Assembly: GCF_034627025.1 (NCBI RefSeq)
Contig: NZ_CP141049.1
Span: forward strand, 806,001-870,000
DNA from: Microvirga lotononidis
Lineage (GTDB): Bacteria; Pseudomonadota; Alphaproteobacteria; Rhizobiales; Beijerinckiaceae
Length of the DNA: 64,000 nt
Reading direction: 5' to 3'
This document shows, in pieces, positions 39,054-60,089 of this stretch. Position numbers and translations under genes: made by a program. Positions within the stretch are counted from its first letter, which is position 1. Each line of letters opens with the position of its first letter. The notes beneath the pieces were generated by a model. It had not been told where the DNA came from and did no database searches. It saw only the letters and a program-made list of their open reading frames with translations.

Positions 39054-39584
39054 CGACCTGCGCCCCTTGCTTCGTTGTCAGCGACAATCTCAGTCGTTCG
39101 AGCCAAATCGAGGACCCACACCACAGCGCCCCTTTCGCGAGGTTTGAGCGGATTGTTCCTGAAACCGGACGACATTACTCTCTTCACCATGCGACACCGC
39201 GCCGTCAAGAACCCGCGGAAAATGTTGGTTAGACCGCGCGACAGCTCGCTGGATCCGCTTTCTTGTTGGTTGGGCCAAGACACACCTTGGATCGACTCTG
39301 GTACCGGGGCCTGTGGCACCTTGAGTGAGGAGCAGATGTTACGCTGCAACTCCCTGCTAGGCCGACCGATGTGAACCCGGTCACCCGCCCTGCTGGCACA
39401 GTTCCGTAGAGAATACTGGTAATGGTGCTGCCCTTGGGAAGAGAGCTGCAACCCATGTCTCGTGCCCGGGCGACCGTGTTGACACTCGCTCCGATGTAGT
39501 CCTTGATGCTCTGGCGCCAACGGGTGAGCGCATCAACGATGCCTCTCGTCCGTCTGCCGTACATTCATCGGCACGCAAGCCGAT
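39054..39584. other. Stretch without a recognisable gene
   Basis: No frame here shows a known domain. The last 100 bp resemble the segment before the queC remnant at 48.6 kb (shared GGTGAGCGC block and TTCATCGGCACG with a CGGC-GCCG hairpin), so it is partly a diverged duplicate of that leader. Confidence 0.45.
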
Positions 39585-39601
39585 CCGGTCAAAACAAGGA
39601 G
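39585..39601 (+). promoter_or_regulatory. Remnant preQ1 riboswitch with the aptamer loop deleted
   Basis: CCGGTCAAAACAAGGAG matches the outer parts of the preQ1 aptamer at 48653-48684, but the 15 nt between the two CCGGT repeats (loop and 3' P1 strand) are missing. The ribosome site AAGGAG is retained before GTG 39607. It cannot bind preQ1. Confidence 0.75.
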
Positions 39602-39606
39602 CCCAC

Positions 39607-39714
39607 GTGAAGACCCTCGTCGTCTGTTCCGGCGAATTGGACTCCGTCACCCTCGCCCACAAGGTTGCGGCTGAGCAATCCCTCACCCGCCTCGGTGTGC
39701 CGCTTGTTGGATGA
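39607..39714 (+). pseudogene. queC N-terminal remnant (copy 1)
   Basis: GTG 39607 begins VKTLVVCSGELDSVTLAHKV followed by AAEQSLTRL, the start of a rhizobial-type QueC, and stops after 35 codons at TGA 39712-39714. The PP-loop motif SGGLDS is changed to SGELDS. It lies 52 nt before pabB. Confidence 0.85.
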
Positions 39715-40844
39715 GGTCAGCACGCCAAGAACGCCAACCTTGATCCGATTTTCGACTGCTGATGTCATGCGACACCCGATCCATCTTGAACATCTTGGCA
39801 GCCTTGACGCATTCACCTGCGCGCGGGCATTGTCGCAACTGCCCGATCTGCTGTTCCTGGATAGCGCTCTGCGCCACCCTGTGCTCGGACGCTACTCCTT
39901 CGTCGCCGCAGACCCTTTCGGCCGGTTTGCCGTGCGGGGTGGACGAGCACTCTGGAACGGCGATCCCTTAGCTCAACCGCCGCTATCCGCACTGCGCTCT
40001 CTCTTAGACCGGTACCGCCAATCGAGAATGGAAAGCCTGCCGCCATTCCAAGGCGGTGCAGCAGGTTATCTCGCGTATGATTTTCGGCACACTCTCGAGA
40101 GGCTCACACCGGCGCCGACCGACGTCCCATGCCCTGAAGCCGTGCTCCCATTCTACGATGTCGTCGTGAGCTTCGATCACCGGAGTGGCGACGCGTGGCT
40201 TGTTTCAACGGGCTGGCCAGAGCAGGACCCAGACAAGCGCCAGAAGCGGGCCGCAGCTCGCGCTCAGCAATTCCGGAGGCTTCTCGGCCATGGACCGCGC
40301 CAGCTCCGTGACTGCAGGCTCGCAAGCCCATGGACGTCGAACTTCTCGGCCAGCGGCTACAGGAAGGCCGTTAAGGCCGTGATCGACTCCATATTGGCCG
40401 GAGACATCTTCCAGGCGAACATTGCCCAGCGCTTTACCGCTTGCGTTTCCGATGACTTCGACGCGCTTGCCTTCTACGGCCAGCTCCGCCGCGTGAATCC
40501 TGCGACCTTTGGCGCTTTTCTCAGCTTCGACGAGAGCACGATTGCCTCGAGCTCGCCTGAGCGCTTTCTGAAGGTTGATCAGGGCTGCGTCGAAACACGC
40601 CCGATCAAAGGCACAGTTGCACGCTCCTCCGATCAGCAGCGCGACGGGAACTTGGCTGAGACGCTGCTGCGCTCCGACAAGGATCGGGCCGAGAACCTCA
40701 TGATCGTCGATCTCTTGCGCAATGACCTGTCGCGGGTGTGCAAACCACACACCGTGCGAACCCCCGTGCTGTGCAATCTGGAAAGCTATGCGGCGGTCCA
40801 CCATCTCGTCTCGGTCGTCGAGGGCCAACTCCAGCCAGGCGTTA

Positions 40845-42226
40845 GGGCTTGGCAGGCAACAACCTGCCCAAATGGGCAACTGGTGCGTTGTTGGAACAAG
40901 GACCATCCGTTCTGAACGGAGCTGCCGATGTCGCTACCCTCCCTTCACCCATGTGGATGCCCCAAGTGTCACTCGCGCAAGCCCCATCCGGACCGCATGC
41001 TTCATCGGCAGATCAACCTGCTTGCCAGCCGGCTCGACGAACAGCAGCGCCGGTGGTTTATCGCGTTTGAGGCGATGCGGATCGGCTGGGGCGGCACTCA
41101 GCGGCTTGCCCAGATCACGGGCTTGAGCCCCCATACCATCCGGCGCGGCCGTCGCGAACTCGAGGCCGGGCTTGTTGACCGCCCCACCGAGCGCGTGCGG
41201 GTCGCCGGTGGTGGCCGTCCCACCCGAGAGGTCCAGGATCCTGAACTCCCACAGACCTTGGAGGAGTTGCTCGAAGGCGAGACAGCGGGTGACCCGATGG
41301 GTCGGCACGCCAAAGCCAAGCGGAGTTCTCTGCATCATCTGAGCCATGAGCTTGCCGTCGCAGGACACCCGGCCAGCCGCCCCACGGTGGCGCGCCTGCT
41401 GCGCCAATTGGGCTACTCGCCCAAAGCCAATGCACGGCGTACCGAGGCGCACAGCACGCCGCCTGAGCGCGATGCGCAATTCCAGCACATCGCCGAACAG
41501 CGCGCGCAGTTTGCAGCCACAGGTGAGCCGATCATCAGCGTGGATTCGAAAAAAAAAGGAATTGGTCGGTGACTTCAAGAACCCGGGCCAGACGTGGTGC
41601 CGGAGAGCCGAGCCGGTCTTGGTGCACGACTAGCCGCAGGATGCAGTCGGTCAGGCCATTCCTTACGGCATCTACGAGATCACAACCAACAGCGGCTATG
41701 TGTGCATCGGCGATTGCTTTGACACCCCGCGCTTTGCCGTTGAGGCGATCAGTGACTGGTGGGAGAGCGAAGGACAGAAGCGCTTTCCAGAAGCCGGGCG
41801 TCTCCTCGTCCTGGCCGATGCGGGCGGCTCGAACAGTTGCCGCTCCCGAGTTTGGAAAGCCCAGTTGCAAGAACAGCTCTGCGATGCCTGCGGGCTCGAG
41901 GTCACGGTGTGTCACTATCCCACCGGCTGCTCGAAGTGGAACCCAATTGAGCACCGGCTCTTCAGCTTCATCAGCTTGAACTGGGCTGGCGTGCCGCTGC
42001 GGACCTTTGCGACGATGGTCCGCTACATTGCCGGAACCGTCACGGCAGCCGGGCTGCGGGTGAATGCTCGCCTCAAGCGTGGTGGCAATGAGACCGGGGA
42101 GCGGGTCTCCGACGAGGTCATGCGTCGCCTCCACCTGAGGCCGCATGCCGTCTGTCCCGCATGGAATTACACGCTCTCGCCGCGAACTTGATAACCTGAA
42201 TTGGCAAATAGTTGGCTGCCAAGCCC
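40845..42226 (+). mobile_element. ISAzo13-family element in pabB, copy 2 (1382 bp)
   Basis: Inverted ends GGGCTTGGCAGGCAAC (40845 on) and GGGCTTGGCAGCCAAC (reverse, from 42226). TTA is duplicated directly (40842-40844 and 42227-42229). The sequence is the mirror image of copy 1 at 16514-17895, of the same length. Confidence 0.95.
40928..42191 (+). pseudogene. ISAzo13-family transposase with A9 frameshift and amber codon (copy 2)
   Basis: ATG 40928 opens 214 codons to SVDSKKKGIGR. The run of nine A at 41549-41557 shifts the expected frame: with eight A the protein would read DSKKKELVGDFKNPG. In that frame TAG at 41631-41633 follows VLVHD, and the sequence continues without further stop to 42191. 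The same two features occur in copy 1. Transcriptional slippage on A9 could correct the first; the amber codon would still need readthrough. Confidence 0.9.
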
Positions 42227-42543
42227 TTACGGCAACCGACGTGATCGCCGCCTGTTTCCCGGGCGGGTCGATCACGGGTGCGCCAAAAATCCGCGCCATG
42301 GAGATCATCACCCGGATCGAACGCTGTGCCCGGCAGGTCTATTGTGGCTCCATCGGCTACTTTGGCTTCGACGGGACAGCCGATACGAACATCGCGATTC
42401 GGACCATCATGCTGACGGACGGATCAGCCGTATTTCATGCGGGCAGTGGGATTACGGCGCTGTCCAACCCGCAGGCCGAGTACGAGGAAACCTTGGCGAA
42501 GGCCCAGCGCATTTTTGCAGCCTTTGAAGCATAGACGACGAGA

Positions 42544-43143
42544 ATGATCTTGATCATTGACAACTATGACTCTTTCGTTTTCAACGTCGCACGGTACTTC
42601 TCTGAGCTGGGCGAGACGGTGAAGGTGGTCCGCAACGACGCGATCGACGTCGGCGCAGTTCGAGGCCTATCGCCGAGAGCCGTCGTGCTCTCGCCCGGGC
42701 CATGCTCTCCATTGGAAGCCGGCGTGTCCTGCGAGATCGTCCGGCATCTGTCGGGATTGCTCCCGCTTCTGGGGATTTGCCTTGGTCATCAATGCATCGG
42801 ACAGGTCTTCGGGTGGCGGGTCACGCGGGCGCACAACCCCATGCATGGGCGCTCCTCCGCGATCAGCCACAGCGGTCAGGGTATTTTCAACAGCCTGCCC
42901 AATCCGTTAAAGGCGGGGCGTTATCATTCGCTGATTGTCGAGGAGGATCGGAGCTCGACGGAGTTGGAGGTGACCGCACGCTCGGAGGACGGCGAGATCA
43001 TGGCCCTGCAGCATCGACGCCATCCCACCTATGGCGTGCAGTTTCATCCGGAGTCCATCCTGACCGAGCACGGACACACGCTGCTGTCCAACTTCCTCGA
43101 TATCGCGGCGAAAGCCAAGGAGAGGCGCCATGCTGTGGTTTGA
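42544..43143 (+). CDS. pabA: Aminodeoxychorismate synthase component II (glutamine amidotransferase)
   Basis: 199 residues. Class I amidotransferase: MILIIDNYDSFVFNVARYFS, oxyanion strand VVLSPGPCSPLEAG, nucleophile elbow LLGICLGHQCIGQVFG (Cys) and the His-Glu pair in YGVQFHPESILTEHG. It releases ammonia from glutamine for PabB. It starts 9 nt after pabB and overlaps pabC by 14 nt, so the three form an operon. Intact, but its partners on both sides are disrupted. A TrpG role is less likely given the context. Confidence 0.95.
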   Translation: MILIIDNYDSFVFNVARYFSELGETVKVVRNDAIDVGAVRGLSPRAVVLSPGPCSPLEAGVSCEIVRHLSGLLPLLGICLGHQCIGQVFGWRVTRAHNPMHGRSSAISHSGQGIFNSLPNPLKAGRYHSLIVEEDRSSTELEVTARSEDGEIMALQHRRHPTYGVQFHPESILTEHGHTLLSNFLDIAAKAKERRHAVV

Positions 43144-43912
43144 TGGGGCGGTCTCGAATGATCCGCGAACCGGTTTCGATTTGCGCGACCGAGGGCTTCT
43201 GCTGGGCGACGGCTTGTTCGAAACGCTGGCTGTTGCGAATGGCCGAGCCTTCATGCTTGACGCGCATCTCGATCGTCTTCTCGCCGGTGCGGCCGCATTG
43301 AACATCCCAGTGGATCGGGAGGCTCTGCGACGGCCGGTTGAGGATCTGACTGCCGCTCTCCCCGAAGGGGGCATCATTCGCCTGACCCTGACCCGAGGCG
43401 CGGGACCCCGCGGCTTACGACTTCCGATACACCAACAGCCCACCGTCTTTGCGGCTGCGTCCGCACCATGGTCGCCAAATCCGACGGCAGCGGAGGTGCG
43501 CTTGGCGACGGCACGGATTCGGCGCAATTCTTCTTCGCCTACATCACGATACAAAACGCTCGCCTATCTCGATAATGTCCTCGCCGTACAGGAAGCGTTG
43601 GACCAAGGCGCTGACGACGCGCTCCTCCTGGCGGTTGGCGGGCAGGTGGCCTGCACCAGCGCCGGAAACATTTTTATCATCGAGGGTGAGAGGCTCCTCA
43701 CCCCATCCCTCGACAATGGAGTGTTGCCTGGAATCACCCGCGCCCTTGTTCTCAATGTCTTGGCACCCGAACTCGGTCTGATCCCACAAGAAGTGAACCT
43801 TCCAAAGGACAGTCTCTTTCAAGCCGATGCCGTGCTTCTGAGTAAGCATCCGAGGAGCCGCGCGGACTTTGAGCGTCGCGCGTCATCCGGTTTGTCGTAT
43901 GATGGTGGATGT

Positions 43913-45586
43913 TCAGGCGGCCCGCTGTGGCGCCGGGCTTTCGCCTTGGCGCAACCTCTTCCATTCCCATGGTAGCATTTCATGGAGGCGTGAGACCGGC
44001 AGGTTGGCGATCCGAGCAAGGATATCGGCGAGCCATGCCTTCGGGTCGACATCGTTGAGACGGGCCGTCATGGTGAGCGTGAGCATGATGGCGGCCCGGT
44101 CGGCGCCGCGATCGGAACCGGCGAAGAGCCAGGATTTTCTGCCGCAGGCCACACCGCGTAACGCCCTCTCGGCCGCGTTGTTCGTGAGACAAATTCTGCC
44201 ATCGTCGACAAAGCGGGAGAAGTCGGCCCAGCGCGAGAGCATGTAGTTGATCGGCTCGATCACCGGGGAGGATCGCGACAGATGACCCTGCTCCTGGCGC
44301 AGCCATGCTTCCATCGCGTCCAGCAGCGGCTTGCTCTTCTCCTGCCGCACGGCGCGCCGCTCCGTCGCACTCCGGCCGTTGATCTCGCGCTCGATGGCAA
44401 ACAGCGCATCGATGCGCCTGACCGCCTCCAGCGCAGTCGGCGAGGCCGGCCTGGCGTTCCGGCCGCGCCGGGGATGGCGGGCGACATCGACCAGTTCGAA
44501 GAATTTCCTGCGGGCATGTGCGAAGCAGAAAGCGGCCGTGATCGGCGTTTGATTCTTCGTCGGGTCGAACAGCGGATTGAAGCCGTTGTAGCAATCAGCC
44601 TGAAGCACGCCGCCGAAGCCGGCCAGGTGTTTCTGCGGATGCTCGCCGCGCCGATCGCGGGAGGCGTAATAGACCGCGGCCGGCGGTGCAGGCCCGCCAA
44701 ACGGCTGGTCGTCCCGCACGTAAGTCCAGATCCGTCCGGTCGTGCACTGGCCCTTGGCCAGGATCGGGATCGTGGTATCGTCGCCATGCAGCCGAACGGC
44801 GGCGAACACATGGGCTTCGATCAGGTCGAAGACCGGCTGGAGCGCGGCGCTGACATGGCCGACCTGATCGGCCAGGGTCTGGGTCGACAGCGCGATGCCC
44901 TCGCATTGGAAGCGCGTGCTCTGGCGGTTCAGAGGGATATGCTGTCCGAACTTGTCGAACACGATCGTCGCCAGCAGATTGGGGCCGAGAAAGCCGCGTG
45001 GCGTGGCATGGAATGGCGCCGGTGCCTGGCTGATTGCCTCGCAATCCCGGCACGTGAACTTCTCCCGCACCGTCTCGATCACCTTGAAGCGGCGCGGGAT
45101 CTCCTCGAGCGTCTCCGTCACGTCCTCGCCCAGCTTCGCCAGTCGTGCGCTGCCGCAGCATCCGCAGACCGTCGGCGCCTCCACCACGATGCGCTCGCGC
45201 TCAATGTCTTCCGGAAAGGGTTTGCGCACCGGCCTCTTGCGGGTGAAGGCGCGCACGGTCTGCGCTTTCGCCGCCGCAGCCTCAGCGGCCAGTTCATCCT
45301 CAGTCGCCGCTATCACCAGCTCTTCGAGCTGCAATTCCAGCTGGTCGATCAGCCGTTGGGTGCGCTCACGACGTGGGCCATGCTTCTCGCGCTCGAGTTT
45401 GCCGATCTGCAGCTGCAGATACGCGATCAGCGCTTCGGTGCTGGACAGCCTCGCCCTCGCATGGGCGGCATCCGCGACCGCAGCATCCCGCTCGGCCTCG
45501 CTGCGCAGCCGTGCCTCGCGTTCTGCCAGCAGCGCGGCCTGGGCGCTGGCAAGATCCGAAGGCAGCGAGAACGGTGCCGATGACAT
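43913..45586 (-). CDS. tnpC: IS66 TnpC transposase (copy C)
   Basis: 557 residues with the same plan as the other TnpC proteins: coiled-coil N-terminus, CGCCGSARLAKLGEDVTETL and CRDCEAI zinc region, DDE core with RLHGDDTTIPI, LQADCYNGFNP and LTNNAAERALRGVACGRKSW. Intact. Confidence 0.95.
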   Translation of the reverse strand: MSSAPFSLPSDLASAQAALLAEREARLRSEAERDAAVADAAHARARLSSTEALIAYLQLQIGKLEREKHGPRRERTQRLIDQLELQLEELVIAATEDELAAEAAAAKAQTVRAFTRKRPVRKPFPEDIERERIVVEAPTVCGCCGSARLAKLGEDVTETLEEIPRRFKVIETVREKFTCRDCEAISQAPAPFHATPRGFLGPNLLATIVFDKFGQHIPLNRQSTRFQCEGIALSTQTLADQVGHVSAALQPVFDLIEAHVFAAVRLHGDDTTIPILAKGQCTTGRIWTYVRDDQPFGGPAPPAAVYYASRDRRGEHPQKHLAGFGGVLQADCYNGFNPLFDPTKNQTPITAAFCFAHARRKFFELVDVARHPRRGRNARPASPTALEAVRRIDALFAIEREINGRSATERRAVRQEKSKPLLDAMEAWLRQEQGHLSRSSPVIEPINYMLSRWADFSRFVDDGRICLTNNAAERALRGVACGRKSWLFAGSDRGADRAAIMLTLTMTARLNDVDPKAWLADILARIANLPVSRLHEMLPWEWKRLRQGESPAPQRAA

Positions 45587-45633
45587 GGCACCATTGAATC
45601 AGATTGCCCAGCAACTTCAATGGCAAAACCGGC

Positions 45634-45984
45634 TCACACCCGGGTCGAACGCCAGGTTTCCTGGGGATTGCGCCAGTCGATTCCGGACAGAAGATAAGAC
45701 AGCTGCGCCGGTGAGATCGCAACAGCGCCCCCTTCCACGCTCGGCCAGATGAACCGACCTCTTTCCAATTTCCGCGTGAACAGGCAGGCTCCCTGGCCGT
45801 CATGCCAAATCACTTTGATCAGATCACCTTTGCGTCCGCGGAAGCAAAATAAGTGGCCCGCCAAAGGATCATGCTTCAAAATCTCCTGCACCCGAAGCGC
45901 CAGGGTCGGAAAGCCACACCGCATGTCGGTATGCCCGGTTGCCAGCCAGACCTTGACGCTCGAGCCCATCGGAAAGAGGTTCAT
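45634..45984 (-). CDS. tnpB: IS66 TnpB (copy C)
   Basis: 116 residues: SVKVWLATGHTDMRCGFPTL, LAGHLFCFRGRKGDLIKVIW and KLERGRFIWPSVEGGAVAIS. IS66 Orf2 family. ATG 45984 overlaps the tnpA stop. Confidence 0.95.
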   Translation of the reverse strand: MNLFPMGSSVKVWLATGHTDMRCGFPTLALRVQEILKHDPLAGHLFCFRGRKGDLIKVIWHDGQGACLFTRKLERGRFIWPSVEGGAVAISPAQLSYLLSGIDWRNPQETWRSTRV

Positions 45985-46424: not shown

Positions 46425-46677
46425 ATCGACGTCGATAGAGCCAGTGCTCTTCCAAATGCCCCAGTCCCACAAGGCGGCCCAGCTCGGATGCGTACGCTTC
46501 TGACCAACTCTGTCGCGCTCGTGGCACACGTGACGGAACTCGACGGCAAGCCGCTCTCTCGCCACAGGCGGAAAACAGTCGAGCATATCCGCGCCAATCT
46601 CCTCGCCTTGATGAATTAGCAACGGTTTGTGAGATTGGCCGGACGTTGGAAATTGGCGGCAGCAGCCGTGCACTCAG

Positions 46678-48324: not shown

Positions 48325-48652
48325 GGCTCACTTCAGATCAGGACGGGTCTCCTTCTGTCGCGGTTTGCGCCAGAAGTCGAGCTTTGGTTGATAGGAGGGC
48401 CAAGAGGCACTGCTCGAAGCCAGCCGCAATTTCAGTCCACCCTCGGCTTCGGTGCTTGAGCAGATCAGGCTACTCTATCCCTCCTGCTGACAAGCCATGG
48501 CGGCTCTGAGGAAGCGTGTGATGGAATGCATTCTTATTGACACCTGCATGTCTATTATCGTTTATGCCGCGCAGAACCGGTTGGGTGAGCGCTTGGTAGA
48601 GCCGCGCGTTCACAGGTCCATCCACTTCACGTTCATCGGCACGTGAGCCGAT
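48325..48652. other. Intergenic region between folP and the preQ1 leader
   Basis: No ORF with a domain. Divergent promoters for folP and the que genes must lie here. Near 48634-48650 a CGGC-ACGTGA-GCCG hairpin precedes the aptamer; a related hairpin precedes the defective leader at 39.58 kb. Confidence 0.5.
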
Positions 48653-48684
48653 CCGGTCGCAGCCTACCCGGTCAAAACAAGGAG
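48653..48684 (+). promoter_or_regulatory. preQ1 class I riboswitch
   Basis: The compact aptamer has P1 as CCGG/CCGG (48653-48656 and 48668-48671), the loop TCGCAGCCTAC and the A-rich tail TCAAAACAAGGAG. It closely follows the known preQ1-I type in which GGTCGCAG, ACCC and ACAAAACAAGG occur in this order (as in the Thermoanaerobacter example). The tail contains the ribosome site AAGGAG of GTG 48690, and AGG can pair with CCT of the loop, so ligand binding should block translation. Known ligands are preQ1 and preQ0, matching the queuosine genes downstream. Confidence 0.9.
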
Positions 48685-48689
48685 CTCTG

Positions 48690-48857
48690 GTGAACACCTT
48701 CGTCATCTGTTCCGGCGGATTGGACTCCGTCACGCTCGCGCACAAATCCGCCGCAGAGCGAACCCTCACGCGCCTCAGCTTGTCTCACGCCATCGTCGGT
48801 ATCTCCACCGTAGGACGCCTCCCGACCAGATCGGCGCCGACTATAGGTGCAGCGTAA
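48690..48857 (+). pseudogene. queC N-terminal remnant (copy 2), now a 55-codon leader ORF
   Basis: GTG 48690 encodes VNTFVICSGGLDSVTLAHKS followed by AAERTLTRL, a rhizobial-type QueC start with intact SGGLDS, then unrelated residues to TAA 48855-48857, directly next to the queE ATG. It cannot be an enzyme. Because its ribosome site is inside the riboswitch and its stop touches queE, its translation could carry preQ1 control to queE. Confidence 0.85.
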
Positions 48858-49490
48858 ATGAGCTACGCCGTCAAAGAGATCTTCCTGACGCTTCAGGGCG
48901 AAGGCGCCCAAGCCGGACGAACCGCCGTCTTCTGCCGCTTTGCCGGGTGCAATCTCTGGTCAGGACGAGAGAGCGACAGGGCCGCGGCGGCTCGCCGGTT
49001 CTGCGACACGGACTTCGTGGGCACCGACGGGACCTTCGGCGGACGCCATGCCACCGCCGCCGACCTGTGCGACCGCATTGAGGAGCAATGGGGCCCTGGG
49101 ACTGATCACCGGCTTGTGGTGCTGACAGGCGGAGAACCGCTGCTCCAGGTCGATTCCGCTCTCATCGATGAACTGCACCGCCGCTCCTTCACGATCGCAG
49201 TCGAAACAAACGGCACCATTGAGCCCCCACCGGGGCTCGACTGGATTTGCGTCAGCCCGAAAGGAAGCGCCGACCTCAAGATCCGGGCCGGCCATGAGCT
49301 GAAGCTGGTCTATCCGCAAGAGGATGCCCCGCCCGAGCGGTTTGCCTCGTTAGCCTTCGAGCGGTTCTCGCTTCAGCCGATGGATGGACCGGATCAGGTC
49401 GCGAACACGGCGCTGGCCGTCGAATATTGCCTGGCTCACCCGCAATGGCGGTTGAGCCTCCAAGCCCATAAGTACTTAGGAATCCGCTGA
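48858..49490 (+). CDS. queE: 7-carboxy-7-deazaguanine synthase, missing one cluster cysteine
   Basis: 210 residues. Radical-SAM enzyme of the proteobacterial QueE type: VKEIFLTLQGEGAQAGRTAV, FCRFAGCNLWSGRESDR, FCDTDFVGTDG, VVLTGGEPLLQVD, VETNGTIEPPPGLDWICVSP and LQAHKYLGI. It makes CDG from 6-carboxytetrahydropterin. The family has CX14CX2C; here the sequence is C-(14)-R-RF-C, so the middle cluster Cys is Arg (CGC; one transition from TGC). The [4Fe-4S] cluster would lack a ligand, so activity is doubtful. The TAA of queC' abuts its ATG; it overlaps the queD start. Confidence 0.9.
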   Translation: MSYAVKEIFLTLQGEGAQAGRTAVFCRFAGCNLWSGRESDRAAAARRFCDTDFVGTDGTFGGRHATAADLCDRIEEQWGPGTDHRLVVLTGGEPLLQVDSALIDELHRRSFTIAVETNGTIEPPPGLDWICVSPKGSADLKIRAGHELKLVYPQEDAPPERFASLAFERFSLQPMDGPDQVANTALAVEYCLAHPQWRLSLQAHKYLGIR

Positions 49491-49867
49491 TGTGGGAACT
49501 CACCAAGTCGTTTAACTTCGAAGCCGCCCATACGCTGACCGGCACCACGCTCGGACCTGCCAGCGAGGAGATCCATGGCCATTCCTTCCGGGCCGAGGTC
49601 GCCGTGCGCGGACTGCCCGATCCCGAAACGGGCATGCTGATTGATCTTGGCCTGCTCGAGGGCAAGCTCGCAGAGATGCGCCGGACGCTCGATCACAAGT
49701 TCCTCAACCGCATCGAGGGGCTGGAGCGGCCGACTTTGGAGAACATCACCCGGTTCATTTTCGAGCGGGTCCAGCCTATCGGACCGATCGCCAGGGTGAC
49801 GATCTACCGCGATAGCTGCGGCGAAACCTGCACCTACTATGCGCCGGCTGACCATGAACGCCGCTGA
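49490..49867 (+). CDS. queD: 6-carboxytetrahydropterin synthase
   Basis: 125 residues. PTPS fold: [20 protein letters not shown] with the first zinc His, [16 protein letters not shown] (HGHS zinc site), [27 protein letters not shown] and [15 protein letters not shown]. The second start base overlaps the end of queE. It converts dihydroneopterin triphosphate to 6-carboxytetrahydropterin, using the same GTP-derived pool as the folate genes next door. Intact. Confidence 0.9.
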
Positions 49868-50567
49868 GTCCTCCGCTCTCGTGGTCTTTTCGGGCGGACA
49901 GGACTCGACTACCTGTCTGGCCTGGGCGCTGTCGCGCTACGAGCGGGTCGGGACCATCGGATTCTCGTATGGTCAACGCCACGCCGTCGAAATGGACTGT
50001 CGGGAGCCAATCCGGCAGGCGCTTGCCAGTCTGTCGCCGCTCTGGGCCAGCCGCCTCGGACCGGACCGGGTGATCCCGCTCGACGTGCTGGGCGAGGTGA
50101 GTGTGAGCGCGTTGACGGCGGACCTGCCAGTGGCCAGCAGCCGGGCGGATGGCCTGCCGGCGACCTTCGTGCCCGGGCGCAATCTGGTGTTTCTCACCTT
50201 TGCGGCGATCGTCGCCTTCCAGCGCGGCCTCAAGCGCGTGGTGACGGGCGTCTGTGAGACGGACTTCAGCGGCTATCCCGATTGCCGCGACGACACGATC
50301 AAGGCGCTCCAGACCGCGCTCAACCTCGGCATGAGCGCGCGGCTGGTGCTCGAGACGCCGCTGATGTGGATCGACAAGGCCGAAACCTGGGCCTTGGCCG
50401 AGACCTTGGGCGGGGACGCGCTCGTCGAACTGATCGTGCAGGAGACGCATACCTGCTACAACGGGGATCGCGGCATCCGGCACGACTGGGGCTTTGGTTG
50501 TGGCGAGTGCGACGCCTGTCGGTTGCGGTCAGCGGGATGGCAGCGTTACACCCAAGTGCGGAGCTGA
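49854..50567 (+). CDS. queC: 7-cyano-7-deazaguanine synthase
   Basis: 237 residues from ATG 49854 ([20 protein letters not shown]); an upstream start would overlap queD further. PP-loop [64 protein letters not shown], and the zinc motif [11 protein letters not shown] with the preceding TCYNG. It makes preQ0 from CDG, ammonia and ATP. It belongs to a QueC type with SGGQDST, different from the two remnants (SGGLDSVTLAHK). Intact. Confidence 0.95.
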
Positions 50568-50884
50568 CGAGTCTGGAGCTGAATCATGAGGAGGATTATG
50601 GGGAGGCATGTGATGCCGTGTGCCCCATCTCGACGGTTCCATTGGAGACCGTATCAAGCACCGCAACCGGCGGCACGATCTCGCCTGTAGCAAAAAGGTG
50701 GATCTGAAGTCGGCCGCCGCTCATCGCATTGATGCGCTCGGTGATCGGGTGCGCAGAGATTCCGAGGCCGGTGCGGTTCTTTGGTCACGAGGTGAACCAT
50801 GCGCTAGCGCAGGGGCTGAGCGCGAACGACAGTCAGGGCGGCAAGAGCCGAGGCACCAATGCCAAGCGCCGCACGGCGTGATGC
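50568..50884. other. Gap between queC and thiD without a recognisable gene
   Basis: 317 bp. Frames here give no known domain, and no terminator or RNA was recognised. The queC and thiD genes converge on it. Confidence 0.5.
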
Positions 50885-51685: not shown

Positions 51686-52338
51686 GCCAGAACACCCCGC
51701 GATATCAGACCCTGATCCGCCCTATGCCGTAGCCGGCGCTTCAAGTGGCTGCCATGCAGGAAACCAAGTGCTGCGCCGAGGGTGGTTCTGGCGCATCCCG
51801 TGGCATTCACTCGGATCATCAGCGGATGACTGTTCTCGACGCGAATGATGGGGACGCGATCCGTCATCCAGCCCACCGCGCCAATCAGGGCCGCGATAGT
51901 ATCGTGAGCCTTCGCGAAGGCCTGCACCGTTTCAGGTGTCGCGTCCTCTCCCGCGAGAGCCGAAAGCTCGCCTGCATCGGAGCGCAGGACATGCGACCTG
52001 CCCGTAAGGCCGGAGTGAGCAGATTCCAGGCGGGGTGGGGAGGCTTCGATAAAGTCGGAATTGAGGATCCAGGGCTTGGCGTGCGCGCGATCAGCCGCGA
52101 TAGCCTTCGGGACCGCTGCACGACGCTTGCTGTCGAGCCTGCCGAGATTGGCGAGCAGCGCGGGGATCAGTGAGCGAATGCCGCCTGCGTCCAGCAAAAA
52201 GTAAAACGTAAAGGTTCGCGCCGCAGCATTGGTGATCGCATGGACGCGTGTGCGCTGACCGCGAAGGCGGCTGAGCAGATGCCCGGCCACTTCTCGAAGA
52301 CAAAAAGCATCCGATCCAAACGCTGGTGTACTCGCCAT
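51682..52338 (-). pseudogene. thiM: Hydroxyethylthiazole kinase, degenerate
   Basis: 218 codons against about 260 in the family. Recognisable blocks are VHAITNAAARTFTFYFLLDA, LLANLGRLDSKRRAAVPKAI, KPWILNSDFIEASPPRLESA, DAGELSALAGEDATPETV and [16 protein letters not shown]. About 25 residues are missing between LLDAG and LLANLG, and the C-terminal 50 or so after the GCxxT anion-hole region are lost or altered. It is open and could be translated, but is unlikely to salvage thiazole. It lies directly behind a TPP riboswitch. Confidence 0.65.
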
Positions 52339-52344
52339 CTCGCA

Positions 52345-52425
52345 ATCCCTCCGCCAGCATAATCCGGATCAGGTTCGATGGGTTGATCGAGAAGACCTCT
52401 CAGCCCGAGCGGGCACCCCAAGGAG
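52345..52425 (-). promoter_or_regulatory. TPP riboswitch upstream of thiM-thiD
   Basis: On the reverse strand the THI-box elements occur in order: GGGGTGCCC, GGGCTGAGAGG, then GAACCTGATCCGGATTATGC and GGCGGAGGGA. The GGAGGGA strand lies 7 nt before the thiM ATG, so the 3' strand of the closing helix is also the ribosome site; TPP binding should block translation initiation. Confidence 0.95.
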
Positions 52426-52518
52426 ATGCTGCCGTGATAATTCCTTGGTTCTCCTTTTGCAAGAACCAATCTGTTCAGCTCTTGACAGCCGAGACCACGT
52501 CCACGAGGATAGCATCCG

Positions 52519-52612
52519 TTCCGAGGGGAGCCCTGTGAGGGGCTGAGAGTCGGCTGATCCGCCGTGACCCTTGAACCTGATCCGGGTCGTACCGGCGGAG
52601 GGACTGGAACTA
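52519..52612 (+). promoter_or_regulatory. TPP riboswitch upstream of thiC
   Basis: GAGGGGAGCCC, GGGGCTGAGAG, TTGAACCTGATCCGGGTCG and GGCGGAGGGA follow the TPP aptamer consensus. It is about 70 nt before the thiC start, leaving room for an expression platform. It is back to back with the thiM riboswitch, separated by about 95 bp that must hold both promoters. Confidence 0.95.
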
Positions 52613-52623
52613 TCGAGCAATGA

Positions 52624-59271: not shown

Positions 59272-60089
<818 letters not shown>

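Follow-up and report, generated by a model that had tools for sequence, protein, structure and literature searches.

The window analysed here is a stretch of 64,000 nt of DNA from Microvirga lotononidis; Microvirga is a genus of soil and root-nodule bacteria. The window carries an operon of queE, queD and queC, preceded by a short ORF that corresponds to the head of a queC gene and by a predicted preQ1 aptamer. The features of the locus, in window coordinates, are:

48635..48652, + strand: hairpin P0 (ATCGGC-ACGTGA-GCCGAT), directly 5' of the aptamer and present in the MFE fold
48653..48682, + strand: predicted preQ1-I type II aptamer (clade covariance model, P1 covariation; RF00522 13.9 bits)
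48653-48656 and 48668-48671, + strand: P1 strands of the aptamer (CCGG and CCGG), with L1 starting TCGCAG and the A-rich tail AAAACAAGG
48679..48684, + strand: Shine-Dalgarno AAGGAG of the leader, its first bases within the 3' tail of the aptamer
48690..48857, + strand: leader ORF, a queC head of 55 codons with a GTG start; its TAA (48855-48857) abuts queE
48858..49490, + strand: queE (7-carboxy-7-deazaguanine synthase), ATG at 48858; TIGR04508, 340 bits
49490..49867, + strand: queD, its start overlapping the queE stop (TGATG); PF01242, 96 bits
49839..50567, + strand: full-length queC of a second type, overlapping the queD end; PF06508, 229 bits

The leader ORF and the predicted aptamer

The first-pass annotation had described a truncated queC of 55 codons that touches the ATG of queE, behind an aptamer with the ribosome site in its tail. 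Its coordinates are right, the ORF has a QueC-like start and a TAA directly before 48858, and AAGGAG begins inside the aptamer. The 55-aa product has no family match at E 1. With tblastn it aligns, with a gap and 50% identity, to residues 1-76 of full-length QueC from Microvirga, and the window leader is without 69 alignment columns present in other copies. On the − strand, 5' of the aptamer, are the genes folP, folB and folK. QueF and TGT are encoded in the genome. A queE-queC-queD-like set without this aptamer occurs at L021 (G000:C2:1096512-1100117); its QueC is 39% identical to that of the window, and the rest was named by eye. Elsewhere in the window there are two divergent TPP riboswitches (52329-52430, − strand; 52514-52621, + strand) and an ALIL pseudoknot (59553-59669, + strand).

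A simple scan of 48325-50700 finds no terminator-like site between the aptamer and queE. The two terminator-like sites of this stretch are both within the downstream queC, with 1.3 expected in shuffles, and control by a transcription terminator is rejected on these grounds. The same stretch holds no promoter-like site. TTGACA at 48537-48542 is unchanged in 12 aligned upstream regions of queE-linked copies and is a possible -35 box, with no match in the promoter scan.

The aptamer is 30 nt long, and a 28-nt core including AAGG is used for the comparisons below; the AAGG-bearing core lies 7 nt before the leader GTG. In the window copy A48666 and C48667 precede the 3' strand of P1. By the rule as given in the available text of PMC11625349, AC at this place marks type II and UC type I, hence the window sequence is a predicted class I type II preQ1 aptamer. 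The ACC of the relatives was demanded by our search pattern, and its constancy there is no test of the class. We take the letters UCGCAG and AAAACAAGG to resemble those of the T. tengcongensis aptamer. According to the available text of PMC11625349 and PMC10622847, the T. tengcongensis class I type II switch has in common with the window copy P1, L1, the A-rich tail, AC before the P1 3' strand, a partly internal Shine-Dalgarno and the control of que genes. The Microvirga copy is unlike it in its low score with RF00522 and in having a dead queC head as first ORF.

The aptamer had been called a near-textbook preQ1-I, and here Rfam disagrees: RF00522 gives the window copy 13.9 bits in the right register, against a gathering score of 39 (E 3.3 in a 401-base stretch). 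At the cut-off the model has no match to this aptamer within the window, and at E 0.001 none in the genome. Seven further loci of other genera (four from alphaproteobacteria, one from a gammaproteobacterium and two from Firmicutes) are all below the cut-off as well, three with 31.2, 22.9 and 22.0 bits and four absent at E 10. None of the alphaproteobacterial aptamers tried here is recovered by the Rfam preQ1 model at its curated threshold. The Infernal search named as a check in the first-pass annotation thus fails at the Rfam threshold and passes solely with a clade-specific model. This model (R1), built from 57 aptamers of other genera with none from Microvirga, gives the window copy 58.0 bits (E 3.4e-15). 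The 57 aptamers were hand-picked from 117, with near-duplicates, some others, all Microvirga rows, L101 and L136 omitted; five Firmicutes rows, shifted by MAFFT in the first alignment, were removed from the set.

P1 is paired in 99.6% of 224 cells of the 57-aptamer set, with 10 double-changed cells. None of 500 shuffles reaches the percent paired, the cells or the score, while 21 reach the count of pairs with double changes and 386 the count of pair types; two of the four P1 pairs never vary, being fixed by the search pattern. The two stem positions left free by the pattern pair in 67 and 66 of 68 distinct combinations among the 117 loci listed. The 28-mer, with up to 3 mismatches allowed, has no match in 100 shuffles of the window, and together with the P1 covariation this rejects a chance aptamer. 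P0 pairs in 120/120 cells of 20 distinct Microvirga sequences, mostly via G-U changes; 133 of 500 shuffles reach its measures, and P0 is rejected as a covariation-proven hairpin. The aptamer stretch folds no better than its shuffles (145/200 and 174/200 fold equally well), with a program that draws no pseudoknot.

Copies in Microvirga and in other bacteria

Of 48 Microvirga genomes 17 have the 28-nt core, with up to 3 mismatches, at 36 places in total. It precedes a full-length queC (235-251 codons) at 16 places, a queC head before queE at 13, a 35-codon head before pabB at three and a head before folP at two. The two others are G062, in which a shortened queC that still has the aptamer is followed by a YhhQ-like transporter gene (by eye), and an orphan in G030, whose queC head has about 41 codons and which lacks all of the tested genes within 6.5 kb. 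The cores are identical at 34 of the 36 places; the folP copy in G020 has one mismatch and the G030 orphan three. In L085 (3208-4700) and L088, whose operons are aptamer-led, a YhhQ-like transporter gene (by eye) separates queC from pabB or follows a shortened queC.

The native operon has the order aptamer-queC-queD-queE-folP-folB-folK (M. vignae, L211). The stump-linked queE is 34-35% identical to native queE (L212, L218, L225) over residues 2-135 in tblastn and, judged by this identity, is of a different lineage. Among the best 20 of 151 records with nucleotide matches to the queE-queD-queC region, only Microvirga sp. VF16 covers the leader, and the remaining 19 begin at or behind the queE start (±2 nt). 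The leader as a general part of queE-queD-queC operons is rejected on this count.

Other copies of the aptamer stand before folate genes. The chromosome of the organism itself carries, at L086 (G000:C1:4762000-4768000), the aptamer, a 111-codon queC head, folP, folB and folK, with the native queD and queE gone. In M. calopogonii the queC head before folP has 100 codons and is fused in frame to the final residues of the native queE. In both folP leaders the stop overlaps an in-frame folP ATG (TGATG). The alignment to FolP starts at another ATG, six codons further in; the native operon L211 has only the overlapping ATG, therefore the first ATG is the likelier folP start.

The window holds a further copy, before pabB:

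39577..39600, + strand: deleted aptamer (R1 22.8 bits; alignment with L082 and L084)
39607..39714, + strand: queC head of 35 codons that follows the deleted aptamer and lies 52 nt 5' of the pabB ATG

In this copy a deletion of 15 nt between two CCGGTC repeats, in which the P1 strands lie, has removed the aptamer; the hairpin and the ribosome site are retained. The pabB gene of the window is interrupted (pieces 39767-40885 and 42226-42531), as is pabC (43130-43846 and 46497-46616); to judge by eye, the ORFs at 43913-45984 resemble IS66 genes. The pabB-linked heads end about 50 nt before pabB and are uncoupled from it, with the aptamer kept in 3 of 4.

When one genome per species was scanned with the search pattern, Microvirga included, at least 117 stretches matched, mostly from Rhizobiaceae, Mesorhizobium, Brucella relatives and Rhodobacteraceae, with few from Gammaproteobacteria and Firmicutes. 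Among the 117 loci listed a full-length queC lies directly 3' of the aptamer in 86, a queC truncated by the end of the available sequence in 8 and a queC head in 2, one of these being Microvirga; the aptamer thus stands before queuosine genes at 86 + 8 of them. The other 21, by reading of the translations, comprise queF, queD, transporter genes, two stretch ends, L189 (a Microvirga queE leader with a frame-shifted head) and the likely chance matches L101 and L136. At L152, L157, L159, L164, L114 and L155 a QueF-like start follows the same aptamer at about 50-100 nt, and at this distance the gene does not share the ribosome site of the aptamer. In L099 (a Xanthobacteraceae MAG), L131 and L187 (MAGs) a short ORF of different sequence stands between the aptamer and a QueD-like gene. 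In the last two the ORF has 33 or 50 codons, starts MKMTNICISR and has a TAATG overlap with the QueD-like gene; queD there has, by eye, a good ribosome site of its own.

With the clade model and stricter filters, 385 genomes drawn evenly from the class yield 8 with the aptamer, and the idea that it is common across the class is rejected. In six of the seven other genomes matched by the model the search pattern is readable, always before a full-length queC. In the open-licence literature we found no paper on a preQ1 riboswitch at queC in Alphaproteobacteria, which is not proof of an unpublished arrangement, and none on queuosine in Microvirga.

Sequence change in the queE-linked leaders

The 13 queE-linked places give 11 distinct leaders, since G015a equals G018 and G024 equals G000a; L018, with a queE piece at a contig end, was left out. 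Twelve of the 13 were found via queE and independently of the aptamer. The core including AAGG is identical over 28 nt in all 13. Had these 28 nt changed at the rate of the stump (tree length 1.118 per site), about 31 changes should have occurred, and none is seen. By this comparison the aptamer core is constrained in the queE-linked copies. AAGGAG is present in 10 of 11 distinct copies, with AAGGAA in G064.

The stump itself varies in length from 55 to 88 codons, with gaps of 69, 26, 5 and 1 nt. The QueC start is readable from the GTG in 10 of 11 stumps, and G018 is frame-shifted near the start. Read from the GTG, each of the 11 distinct leaders is open as far as the queE start, while the other two frames have inner stops in 9 and 8 of them. 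At the junction with queE there are seven ATGA overlaps and four abutting stops, so that the stop overlaps or abuts the next start in every distinct leader.

The changes in the leaders are spread evenly over the codon positions (57/45/60; chi-square p 0.31), and the stump is thus dead as a protein; the leader as a conserved peptide is rejected by this flat test. The corresponding counts are 55/39/277 for queE and 60/29/254, counted pairwise, for five full-length queC heads, which places both under strong protein-level selection by the distribution of their changes. In the leader count G018 was masked over its whole length and G015b from position 195 of the leader onward; the start codon and all positions from 219 on did not enter it.

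Neutral change was simulated on the stump tree with three present-day copies as starting sequences, of which two (G020a and G009) are nearly alike, and with 4000 runs for each. All 11 frames stay open in 0.8, 0.3 and 0.25% of these runs. Without the frame-shifted G018 the figures are 3.7, 2.2 and 2.2%. The start codon, kept in all real copies, survives in all copies in about 7% of simulations. Parsimony counts 206 changes in the leaders, among which 3.2 stops are expected and none is seen (P 0.04). Only 1.5% of random changes in the GC-rich head make a stop. We suggest that an open translated path has probably been kept and the peptide has not. The support for a selected open frame, with P from 0.0025 to 0.04, is moderate; sequence exchange between the copies may inflate it, as the independent events would then be fewer than the copies.

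Proposed relay from the aptamer to queE

The duplex of the leader Shine-Dalgarno with the anti-Shine-Dalgarno is -7.2 kcal/mol in 10 of 11 copies, close to the random 5% quantile of -7.4 without passing it. The queE sites fall in two groups: in 6 of 11 copies they have -3.0 to -3.6, close to the random median of -2.9, and in 5 of 11, the window included, they are moderate with -4.4 to -6.1. In the window queE has its own AGGTG 8 nt before the ATG (-6.0).

Because the ribosome site is in the aptamer tail and no terminator-like site precedes queE, control is most likely translational. A translational riboswitch acts directly only on the start site that it contains, and such control must cross the stump to reach queE. 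We suggest the following sequence of events.

At low preQ1: Ribosomes would start at the GTG and cross the stump. On reaching the queE start codon they would terminate at or over it and reinitiate, and queE-queD-queC would be made. Ribosomes translating the stump may also hold off Rho.

At high preQ1: The aptamer would fold and partly hide AAGGAG, in the manner of the T. tengcongensis type II switch, the Shine-Dalgarno of which is described as partly occluded in the available text of PMC11625349. With AAGGAG hidden the stump would stay untranslated and the output of queE-queD-queC would fall. The stump would thus serve as a relay of free sequence, kept for its openness and not for its peptide.

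The closest precedent is ppe2 of M. tuberculosis, where, in the available text of PMC11260477, a translational B12 off-switch acts on the upstream ORF uPPE2, the stop of which overlaps the next start (AUGA). There ppe2 has no Shine-Dalgarno of its own and is made mostly by termination-reinitiation, and the dependence was shown by mutation. The likeness is in the path from riboswitch to upstream ORF to gene. Ligand and aptamer are different, and in Microvirga the relay ORF is a queC stump of variable length and peptide; the term pseudogene is absent from the available main text of PMC11260477. The junctions of the leaders with queE and folP are of the same types as the ATGA and TGATG overlapping pairs in PMC6728339, for which coupling is reported there as strict in 13 of 14 tested. 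That paper, in its available text, is a general study of overlapping gene pairs, with no riboswitch or gene remnant.

The first-pass annotation had proposed that the remnant was kept as a translated leader which couples the riboswitch state to queE-queD-queC. The unchanged core at 13/13 places, the open frame in 11/11 leaders and the similar folP arrangement at two places favour this proposal. We also count in its favour the queE sites near the random median in 6 of 11 copies, the loss of the aptamer in the window copy before the interrupted pabB, the three mismatches of the G030 orphan and the presence of QueF and TGT. It is weakened by the moderate statistics of the open frame (P 0.0025 to 0.04), by the window queE having its own Shine-Dalgarno, by the leader site being no stronger than the random 5% quantile and by the uncoupled pabB heads, three of which in four keep the aptamer, as does the copy in G062; the coupling is a prediction from sequence. 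On balance, we lean towards the stump relaying preQ1 control to queE-queD-queC in Microvirga. For the window copy our confidence is somewhat lower, since its queE has a ribosome site of its own.

The most serious alternative, which we consider unlikely, is that the aptamer and the queC head are leftovers before a second queE-queD-queC operon, with queE self-started and the riboswitch controlling a dead peptide. The unconserved peptide, the moderate site of the window queE (-6.0) and the uncoupled pabB-linked heads would fit it well, and with so few near-stop codons in the GC-rich head (1.5%) an open frame is not very improbable. However, leftovers would hardly keep 28 of 28 core bases at 13 of 13 queE-linked places next to a leader that changes freely, nor the frame in 11 of 11 leaders and a start codon that survives in all copies in about 7% of simulations. 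Moreover, a self-started queE is at odds with a Shine-Dalgarno near the random median in 6 of 11 copies.

Less probable still is Rho acting without reinitiation, when the untranslated stump exposes RNA and preQ1 binding leads to premature termination before queE. Such a mechanism also needs a frame open to queE and is consistent with the stretch from aptamer to queE having no terminator-like site, but Rho alone leaves the stop on the queE start in 11/11 copies unexplained. It is very improbable that the leader encodes a stalling or attenuator peptide which regulates by sensing queuosine-type codons: the leaders do have 3-8 NAU/NAC codons each, but these are few and shift in position, the changes are even over codon positions and G018 is mostly read in another frame, and an attenuator on queuosine codons is rejected on the number of such codons and their unkept positions.

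Returning to the relay, its wider form we put forward tentatively, and with less confidence than the relay to queE: after loss of the queC body, its start would be kept as an ORF of free sequence and variable length that serves only to carry ribosomes, by which the riboswitch would have been handed to queE at 13 places and to folP at two, with short ORFs of different sequence at this position before queD in L099, L131 and L187, MAGs from other groups. The aptamer type is known and so is the principle of coupling, while the relay is unusual. New here would be a relay ORF derived from a dead enzyme gene, with free sequence and in repeated use. In Microvirga the preQ1 aptamer has been placed before folate genes, and the queE-linked copies with their different deletions, those before folP, the uncoupled ones at pabB and the window copy with its deleted aptamer form a natural mutant series. 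If the proposed relay is true, gene decay would hand a riboswitch to new genes: the stump stays open and coupling does the rest.
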